DNA of 45,109 nucleotides from an uncultured Oscillatoriales cyanobacterium (lineage in GTDB: Bacteria > Cyanobacteriota > Cyanobacteriia > Cyanobacteriales > Microcoleaceae): the NCBI GenBank assembly GCA_903893625.1, contig CAITND010000197.1:1-45109 (forward strand), written 5' to 3'. Below, in pieces: positions 24,348 to 27,143 of this stretch (within the stretch, counting starts at the first letter, position 1; each line of letters starts with the position of its first letter). The translations under genes were made by a program, and so were the position numbers. The notes under the pieces are model-generated. The model ran no database searches, had not been told where the DNA came from, and saw only the letters and a program-made list of their open reading frames with translations.

Positions 24348-25206
24348 AATTGGATGCTATCAGAAATGGTATTGGGTTGACAAAAACCCTTGGCCTAACC
24401 CAATTGAATCTGATGTCATATTTAGGATAATATCAGTTATGCCTTAAAAGCCAAAGACGGTTAAACTTGCCGTGAAAATCGGGTCACACAAGCGTCCTTG
24501 CCGACTCGGTTACTAAAAGGACAGCGCCTCTGTCTAGGACAAGCAGAAAGGTTTAACAAGAGGTAATTTAATCAAAGGCGAAAGAAAAAAGCAGTCCCAA
24601 ACGCTTTGGCAATAGGATAGAGGGTGTCATAGTTCACCCAGTCAGGGTAACACCTGCAAAGTAAAACCTGAGATATTTGTCTAGGGTTTTTCTAACTATT
24701 GCTAGAACTGCCATCAAGTTCTGAATCCATTGAGTCGCCTGGAAAAAATTCAGGTAGAATGGGGGCGGACTTGATAAAATTTATCGGAAAAATGGCTTTA
24801 AAACCCTGTCCTTCTAGGACGGCTTTATATTGGGTTGTCTATTGACATCCGATCATGCTACCATTTCCGATAACAGGAAAGGTAAATAACCTGTCTAAAA
24901 ACCTAGTTGCCTAAAGGCAAAACGCTGAACCTTGACAATTGAATCTATAGGGTTCTACTGCACAGTTTTAGTTTCCCCCAGCAGTGGGTAAAAGATTCGT
25001 GGGTACTAGACAACCAGTTTTTTGAAACAAATTTGTTTCAAGTTAAAAAAGAACTCGCATTCATGCGAATAGGGTAGGGCATATCCGAATTTACGCTTGG
25101 GGAGAATCCCACCTCTGGTTAAAGCGCTGCAAGGTACTTTGATTAAGTGGTTTCATTGAACCAAGAATCCCCACGCCTTCAGGCACAGGGAGTGTCAACA
25201 AACCTA
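24348..25206. other. 859-base gene-free, hairpin-rich region upstream of the porin
   Basis: No open frame here looks like protein. Several hairpins are evident. GACAG pairs with CTGTC around 24521-24536. GTCCTT/AAGGAC pair near 24490-24523. GGTGT...ACCC pairs with GGGT...ACACC at about 24626-24658. Later ones lie near the porin (GGGG/CCC about 25099-25110, GGTT/AACC at 25149-25162, GCC/GGC at 25175-25184). The region is less AT-rich than ordinary gaps here. It may be a long structured leader, an independent sRNA, the remains of an IS200/IS605 element, or more than one of these. Confidence 0.4.
25149..25199 (+). mobile_element. IS200/IS605-like right-end relic next to the porin gene
   Basis: GGTTTCATTGAACC (25149-25162) is followed by AAGAATCCCC, a hairpin with loop TTCA (GCC 25175-25177, GGC 25182-25184, outer CCC/GGG) and then GGGAGTGTCAA. 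From memory this is the layout of the right end of many cyanobacterial tnpB elements (GAATCCCC, GC hairpin, GGGGAGTGTCAA). No tnpB codons are visible upstream. It ends only 12 bases before the porin ribosome-binding site. Confidence 0.45.
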
Positions 25207-25211
25207 GACCC

Positions 25212-25222
25212 GTGTGAGGAGT
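25212..25222 (+). promoter_or_regulatory. porin ribosome-binding site complementary to the Yfr1 sRNA core
   Basis: GTGTGAGGAGT is the exact reverse complement of ACTCCTCACAC, the 11-base unpaired core conserved in the cyanobacterial sRNA Yfr1. It contains the Shine-Dalgarno GAGGAG and ends 7 bases before the GTG start at 25230. In Prochlorococcus, Yfr1 is known to block translation of outer-membrane porin mRNAs through this core. Regulation here is inferred from the match. Confidence 0.7.
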
Positions 25223-25229
25223 AAATAGA

Positions 25230-27143
25230 GTGTCGAAAATACTACTGAAAGCATGGCTACTCAGTCCCGCCGTATTAGGGGCTAGTCTAGTAGCTCCAAT
25301 AGCAGCGTTCGCTGAGTTACCCGTGACTGAGGCTCAACCGATTGCGATCGCAGCAGCACCCGAAGCATCTGCCTCGGCAGAAATCCCTCAGGAGCCTACC
25401 CAAACTGAGTTAAAAATCAGTGAGCAAGTCTCTGTGACTCCCTTGGACACATTGACCCTCACCCCACCGCAACAGTTAGCTCAGGTTCCCGTCAATCCCC
25501 ATGCAGGAGTTGGGCCAAGTAGAGGCATCGAAACTCCTGCTAATCCTGCTAATAGTGAAATTCCTTTGGCTGATCTCGACGCTGCACCTCAAGCCGATGC
25601 GGTCAGTAATGCCGAGGTGATGCAACAACTGAATGAATATGGACGTGAAGGTCGAGGCAACAAACGCCAAGCTCAAGTGACCTCCGTATCCCAATTATCT
25701 GACGTTGAACCGACAGCTTGGGCATTCCAAGCTCTACAATCCTTGGTAGAACGCTACGGGTGTATTGCCGGATATCCCGATGGCACCTTCAAAGGAAATC
25801 GCGCCTTAACTCGTTTTGAATTCGCGGCTGGGGTGAATGCCTGTTTAGAGCGGATCAATGAACTGATTGATGCCTCTACAAAAGATTTAGTCACCCGCGA
25901 AGACTTGGCGAAACTGCAACGGCTGATGGAAGAGTTTGCGGCTGAGTTAGCCAGCTTACGCGGACGGGTGGCGGTGTTGGAAGCGCGTACCGGAGAACTG
26001 GAAGCCAATCAATTCTCTACCACCACCAAACTGCGTGGAGAAGCGATATTTTGGTTGGGCGAGGGTGAGGGAAATCGGGCGACTAACAACGTAGTTGGCC
26101 GGTTTGCGGATAGTAGCGATGATCCGACCCAAGCCTATTTAGGCTACCGCGCTCGTTTAAACTTTGATACCAGTTTCACGGGTCAAGATTTACTGAGAAC
26201 TCGTTTACAAGCGCAATCAATGCCTGTGTTGAGTGATTATGATCTGTTCAACACTTTAATGGCTCGTACTGTTACAGATGATTACTCAGGTAACATTGTC
26301 TTAGATAACCTCACCTATCGTTTTCCCTTCTCTGAAGGAAAAGGTTTAGTTTGGATCGGGGCGAAAGGGTTAGCCTTGGATGATGTTCAAGACGTTCTGA
26401 CTCCGTTTAGTGATGAAGGCAGTGGTGCGGTGTCCCGTTTTGGACGGTTCAACCCGGCAACCTTTCAAGGCCCTAATGGTGCAGGGGTGGGTTTGGAATA
26501 TGCCTTTAATTGCAATTTTAAAGCCAATATTGGTTATTTAGCTGATGATGGTATCGCTTCTCAAGCCAGTCAGGGTAAAGGTATGTTCAATGGCAATTAC
26601 AGTGCCATGGCTCAATTAGTCTTTGCACCAACTGACAAACTGGTTTTTGCTTTGGATTATAACCACCGTTACTTTTCCAGCGATAACGTATACGTCACGG
26701 GCGGTACAGGCAGTTGGGGTGCTAACAAACCTTTCGGTCAAAACGCCACAACTACAGATAACTTGGGCGTACAAATGAACTGGAAAGTAGCCAGCCATTT
26801 CTCCATCGGCGGTTGGTTTGGTAGTAGCTGGGCTGATCAGAAGACTGGTGGTAACAGTAATGCCACCATTATCAACTGGGCTGCGGTGTTAGGATTCCCC
26901 GATATCCTGCGGGAAGGAGATACGGCAGGTTTAATTGTGGGGATGCCACCAAAAGTTGTTAGCCATGATATTAATGCCTTAGAAGATGAAGACACTTCAA
27001 TTCATATTGAAGGCTTCTATCGCTTCCCCTTCAGCGAGTACATTGCTGTGACACCGGGCTTCTACGTCGTGACCAATCCTGATCACAATAGCAACAACGA
27101 TACTATTTTTGTGGGTACACTGCGGACAACTTTCCGCTTCTAA
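25230..27143 (+). CDS. SLH-OprB outer-membrane porin (iron-uptake/SomA type)
   Basis: A 637-residue porin. A signal peptide ends near PIAAFA (residue 28). A proline- and alanine-rich spacer follows (30-145). Then comes one SLH domain (150-215: LSDVEPTAWAFQALQSLVER, GYPDGTFKGNRALTRFEFAA) that anchors to peptidoglycan. A coiled coil at about 220-255 is followed by the OprB-like beta barrel (258-637), which begins TKLRGEAIFWLG and ends with a terminal Phe (TLRTTFRF), as outer-membrane proteins do. It would let small solutes and inorganic ions cross the outer membrane. Start is GTG at 25230, supported by the strong GAGGAG. Its leader carries the Yfr1-complementary site, and a terminator follows. 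Confidence 0.94.
   Translation: MSKILLKAWLLSPAVLGASLVAPIAAFAELPVTEAQPIAIAAAPEASASAEIPQEPTQTELKISEQVSVTPLDTLTLTPPQQLAQVPVNPHAGVGPSRGIETPANPANSEIPLADLDAAPQADAVSNAEVMQQLNEYGREGRGNKRQAQVTSVSQLSDVEPTAWAFQALQSLVERYGCIAGYPDGTFKGNRALTRFEFAAGVNACLERINELIDASTKDLVTREDLAKLQRLMEEFAAELASLRGRVAVLEARTGELEANQFSTTTKLRGEAIFWLGEGEGNRATNNVVGRFADSSDDPTQAYLGYRARLNFDTSFTGQDLLRTRLQAQSMPVLSDYDLFNTLMARTVTDDYSGNIVLDNLTYRFPFSEGKGLVWIGAKGLALDDVQDVLTPFSDEGSGAVSRFGRFNPATFQGPNGAGVGLEYAFNCNFKANIGYLADDGIASQASQGKGMFNGNYSAMAQLVFAPTDKLVFALDYNHRYFSSDNVYVTGGTGSWGANKPFGQNATTTDNLGVQMNWKVASHFSIGGWFGSSWADQKTGGNSNATIINWAAVLGFPDILREGDTAGLIVGMPPKVVSHDINALEDEDTSIHIEGFYRFPFSEYIAVTPGFYVVTNPDHNSNNDTIFVGTLRTTFRF

Follow-up and report, generated by a model that had tools for sequence, protein, structure and literature searches.

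A predicted Yfr1 pairing site over the ribosome-binding site of an SLH-OprB porin gene, and conservation of its motif in cyanobacterial porin leaders

Introduction

The window, by which we mean the whole 45,109-nt stretch of DNA analysed here, carries a porin gene with an 11-nt sequence, GTGTGAGGAGT, just upstream of its start codon. In agreement with the original prediction, all 11 bases of this sequence form the exact reverse complement of the core of the small RNA Yfr1, which has been printed as ACUCCUCACAC (PMC2190773). The locus raises the question of whether the porin mRNA is a base-pairing target of Yfr1, or whether the site has some other use or origin.

Results

The porin gene (25230..27143, + strand) was identified as an open reading frame with a GTG start that encodes 637 amino acids. 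Pfam located an SLH domain at residues 157-199 (37.2 bits) and an OprB barrel at residues 223-637 (164.9 bits), and the presence of both identifies the product as an SLH-OprB porin. The predicted pairing site in the porin leader occupies 25212..25222 (+ strand) with an exact match, its conserved part, GTGTGAG(GA), being 25212-25220. As predicted, 7 nt separate its end from the GTG at 25230, and it overlaps the ribosome-binding site, also as predicted: GAGGAG (25216..25221, + strand), 8 nt before the start codon, lies within it and is, judged from the sequence, likely the Shine-Dalgarno sequence of the porin. The 11-mer is present as a single copy in the window, where the mean expectation is 0.02 and 2 of 100 shuffles contained a match. 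In the predicted fold of the porin leader, GTGT and AGT of the site are paired and only GAGG is open.

The source genome is that of a Planktothrix relative. The nearest named relatives of the porin, with 83-88% protein identity, are L010-L013 and L019; four of these are recorded as Planktothrix and one as Oscillatoriales. The block TAGACCCGTGTGAGGAG (25205..25221, + strand) is identical in the six aligned Planktothrix-type leaders, that is, in the window and in these five loci. Approximately the last 30 nt before the porin start align well with the same five genomes. Further upstream, positions 24700-25195 of the window align poorly with them, and a rearrangement upstream of the porin leader is possible.

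The yfr1 gene, which the original prediction proposed to look for in the same genome, is present on contig C132, where the RF01116 covariance model matched with 60.1 bits (gathering cut-off 38). Its neighbours (on L002), read by eye, are guaB and a thioredoxin gene, giving the guaB-yfr1-trxA order that has been described in several cyanobacteria (PMC2190773). In the predicted fold of this RNA, ACUCCUCACAC is single-stranded between two stem-loops. The duplex between the window site and Yfr1 was calculated at -20.4 kcal/mol, or -15.5 kcal/mol after accessibility was taken into account. Among 236 ORFs of the own genome, the porin itself included, this placed the porin 6th by duplex energy and 3rd by accessibility-corrected total energy; the ranking within a single genome is support rather than proof, because the best of many start codons was taken for each ORF.

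The genome-wide count of the 11-mer that had been proposed as a check proved little by itself, with five copies on both strands of the 5.8-Mb genome versus one for the backwards control, but it did set the porin copy apart as the only one that precedes a substantial ORF. The other copies lie in yfr1, in a Cyano-1 (RF01701) RNA, at an intergenic site on contig C264, and antisense within an ORF that looks by eye like an elongation factor Tu gene. Leaving out this last one, the four places are either the porin or RNAs, candidates included, that belong to the Yfr1 network. The Cyano-1 match with the identical GTGTGAGGAGT (G000:C148:33462-33539, - strand) scored 49.0 bits, over the cut-off of 41, and a second match (G000:C104:42506-42576, + strand) scored 36 bits, below it. 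Both bear GTGTGAGGAG near the 5' end. We take Cyano-1 to be a Yfr2-type RNA, which fits the shared motif.

The intergenic copy belongs to a candidate Yfr10-like sRNA (G000:C264:15714-15864, - strand; also L042 and L207-L214) between ORFs reading as aroB and an amidase. ACTCCTCACAC is read on the strand opposite the 11-mer, and downstream of it come a terminator-like hairpin and a T-run. All 10 same-genus genomes searched contain the candidate, and none of the 10 others searched does; in the eight of the ten same-genus copies that were aligned, CTCCTCACAC is kept throughout and the full 11-mer in six. In Yfr10 the Yfr1 core sits in the loop atop a stem (PMC6778093), an arrangement not seen in the predicted folds of the candidate, and no Rfam match favoured its assignment as a Yfr10-like sRNA. 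With a Cyano-1 RNA and the C264 candidate both in the genome, the three-part circuit of Yfr1, Yfr2 and Yfr10 known in Prochlorococcus may, by analogy, also operate here.

Twelve orthologous or paralogous porin leaders were compared with that of the window. Eight of them (five Planktothrix-type loci, Arthrospira, one Oscillatoriales assembly and Lyngbya) keep GTGTGAGGAG, and their final position is C or A; in three of the other four the match is reduced to GTGTGAG, and in L037 it is absent altogether. In those eight leaders, conservation of the 11-mer held for its first ten bases and failed for the final T, which none of them possesses. From these leaders and the wider comparison below, what is conserved is not the 11-mer as a whole but GGUGUGAG(GA), which is offset one base 5' relative to GTGTGAGGAGT and is complementary to UCCUCACACC of Yfr1. 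The window leader has C in place of the usual G before GTGTGAG. In the own genome, a porin paralogue on contig C55 has GGTGTGAGAATTGAG before its start, and no site was found in the leader of a third SLH-OprB relative on contig C62. The latter gene (G000:C62:49134-50262) was matched as two segments that lie in different frames and lack query residues 264-399, and it may be degenerate.

For a wider comparison, 126 porin loci were collected, all 126 with usable leaders, and collapsing similar leaders left 90 nonredundant ones. Sixty of the leaders were hand-picked for spread among the matches listed, before the leaders were seen, and L009 and L206, which hold the second parts of genes already represented by L008 and L205, were omitted. 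GTGTGAG was the commonest 7-mer, occurring in 72 of the 90 nonredundant leaders (99 of 126 before collapsing) and missing from 18, and GGTGTGAG was the commonest 8-mer (61 of 90). A site nearly identical to the predicted one is thus widespread, shifted by one base. Controls in which GAG was kept and the four preceding bases were permuted occurred in 0, 1, 1, 1 and 2 of the 90 leaders. Background leaders, taken as 250 nt before ORFs of at least 150 aa (the porin regions had a mean length of about 196 nt in an initial round), contained GTGTGAG in 3 of 214 cases for other ORFs of the own genome and in 0 of 115 for ORFs flanking porins. The value of 3 in 214 is if anything too high, since 8 of the 20 background stretches lay on contigs selected for a motif or Rfam hit, and a ninth shared its contig with a porin paralogue.

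A base profile was made from the 59 of 72 motif leaders with enough flanking sequence. The base before GTGTGAG is G in 53 of 59; this position lies outside any Shine-Dalgarno sequence and pairs with the C that follows the 11-nt core of Yfr1. After the motif come G and then A, each in 37 of 59, and conservation drops further out. Outside the order but within the class, 20 of 25 porin leaders contained the motif, and the five that did not have close variants of it, TTGTGAGGAG and GGTGTGAATA among them. This sample comprised 25 of 27 new loci (two were from the same order), one per genome and uncollapsed, some being near-identical.

Across 148 genomes, the pattern GGTGTGAGGAN{3,15}ATG gave 546 matches versus 120 for the backwards control. 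Eighteen of the matches listed represent yfr1 on the other strand, and subtracting one match per genome still leaves 398. In the own genome, GTGTGAGGA was found close before two ORFs, one judged by eye to encode a LytR-CpsA-Psr cell-wall protein (G000:C223:1507-1523) and the other a squalene/phytoene synthase (G000:C35:3591-3611), which are possible further targets of Yfr1.

Because CUCCUC of Yfr1 resembles the 16S anti-Shine-Dalgarno, the site could be a strong ribosome-binding site and nothing else, with no regulation involved. The correct spacing of GAGGAG from the start codon fits this explanation, and so does the own-genome search for the 9-mer followed by a start codon (GTGTGAGGAN{4,13}RTG), which showed no excess over its control (5 vs 5). 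However, the invariant part of the porin leaders is GGTGTGAG, and GAGG, in 49 of the 90, is less well kept than GTGTGAG. The prefix GTGT stands before GAGG in 49 leaders, versus 41 for the other 255 prefixes combined. Furthermore, the single-stranded region of Yfr1 paired with the 90 leaders at a mean duplex energy of -17.7 kcal/mol, whereas shuffles gave -11.3 (sd 1.3) and none of 200 was as good; the 16S tail gave -8.1 versus -8.7 for its 50 shuffles. Because GTGT is more strongly conserved than GAGG, and because pairing of the 16S tail did not exceed that of its shuffles, a generic Shine-Dalgarno was rejected as the main explanation, and we regard a site with no use beyond ribosome binding as very unlikely.

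Yfr1 was found in 146 of the 148 genomes of the order, 136 of them over the cut-off. In one genome, G095, which is 99% complete, the family model detected no recognisable Yfr1 (best 17.6 bits), and three of its four porin leaders (L202-L205) keep the motif GGTGTGAGG. Its same-genus neighbour G112 has Yfr1 at 55.1 bits. Of the seven CTCCTCACAC places in G095, three were matched by the Cyano-1 model, two of them above the gathering score and the third below; at the remaining places, neither Yfr1 nor Yfr10 was clearly recognised. The motif might accordingly be read mainly by a protein or by another core-bearing RNA of the Yfr10 type, with Yfr1 secondary. Besides G095, the candidate RNA on C264 would be in line with such a reader, as would Prochlorococcus, where Yfr10 has the Yfr1 core and shares some targets with it (PMC6778093). 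However, the candidate was confined to its genus among the genomes searched, while both the motif and Yfr1 occur across the order, and Yfr1 itself represses the Nostoc homologues in E. coli (PMC6974561). A mainly different reader is in our judgement very unlikely.

That the motif is a functionless product of chance or shared ancestry is extremely unlikely: although the porins share ancestry and a genome of this size could hold the perfect 11-mer by chance, the motif stays when similar leaders are collapsed while the surrounding bases lose conservation, and the base pattern fits Yfr1 and not shuffles.

Discussion

The site is complementary to Yfr1, the genome has a yfr1 gene whose RNA is predicted to fold with its core unpaired, and the target motif is conserved; on these grounds we consider it highly probable that the site in the window is a base-pairing target of Yfr1, which would hide the ribosome-binding site and repress the porin. 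The 11-mer alone is weak evidence against chance, so it is the conservation that carries the case. Several results speak against this reading: the motif is missing from 18 of the 90 leaders and from 5 of the 25 in other orders, G095 retains it although no Yfr1 was recognised there, the 9-mer with a start codon shows no excess in the own genome, and the predicted leader fold leaves most of the site paired. Yfr1, encoded elsewhere between guaB-like and trxA-like genes, would offer its unpaired core for pairing to GUGUGAGGAGU of the porin leader. This duplex would cover the Shine-Dalgarno sequence, ribosomes would fail to start and less porin would be made; faster decay of the porin mRNA may follow. 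We infer the repression and its size, the occlusion of the ribosome and any decay by analogy with the validated cases in Nostoc and Prochlorococcus. Since nearly the same site precedes most of the related pore genes examined, one sRNA probably turns down the whole pore family.

A broader proposal is that GGUGUGAG(GA) is an ancient, class-wide leader element of SLH-OprB genes, through which a steadily expressed sRNA sets the total level of outer-membrane pores. Because Cyano-1/Yfr2-type RNAs share letters with the porin leaders, abundant porin mRNAs and Yfr2 would then compete for Yfr1, and porin transcription would feed back on the Yfr1 regulon. We put this forward tentatively, as a possibility that we would on balance not bet on. 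Taken by itself, the window porin would extend a published regulon in a routine way. The wider significance concerns Yfr1 itself, for it has been remarked that the perfect conservation of its core might reflect a conserved target element (PMC2190773). The porin-leader motif, as the top 7-mer and 8-mer of the 90 leaders and with its recurrence in other orders, is a natural candidate for the source of that constraint. Our literature search on Yfr1 and cyanobacterial porins, which covered mainly non-subscription journals and was largely made at the level of titles, listed none on a class-wide porin leader motif.

Three known systems can be compared with the locus. In Prochlorococcus MED4, the porin-type mRNAs of PMM1119 and PMM1121 are bound by Yfr1 (cited in PMC6778093 and PMC6974561); the organism is a different one, and the likeness lies in the type of target. 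Yfr2 of Prochlorococcus is a binding partner of Yfr1 that inhibits the pairing of Yfr1 with a target (PMC6778093). The own-genome Cyano-1 RNA resembles the window site in carrying the identical 11-mer, but it is a non-coding partner of Yfr1 and not an mRNA leader.

The third system is that of Nostoc sp. PCC 7120, in which 11 targets were reported in 2020 to respond to Yfr1 in an E. coli reporter assay, 10 of them being repressed, among these the OprB-like Alr4550 and Alr0834; mutation of the Yfr1 core weakened the effect (PMC6974561). Both proteins are listed with SLH domains (PMC9705863). The two systems thus share the sRNA family and the SLH porin type (PMC6974561, PMC9705863), and for most of the Nostoc genes tested the site likewise lies just upstream of the start (PMC6974561). 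In contrast, the window comes from a different organism with no heterocyst context, and its match, a pairing predicted from sequence, spans all 11 bases of the core. The original prediction that Yfr1 control extends to SLH-OprB porins of filamentous cyanobacteria is therefore, through Alr4550 and Alr0834, already in print (PMC6974561, PMC9705863); what the present analysis adds is one more putative target gene and a candidate class-wide element of porin leaders.
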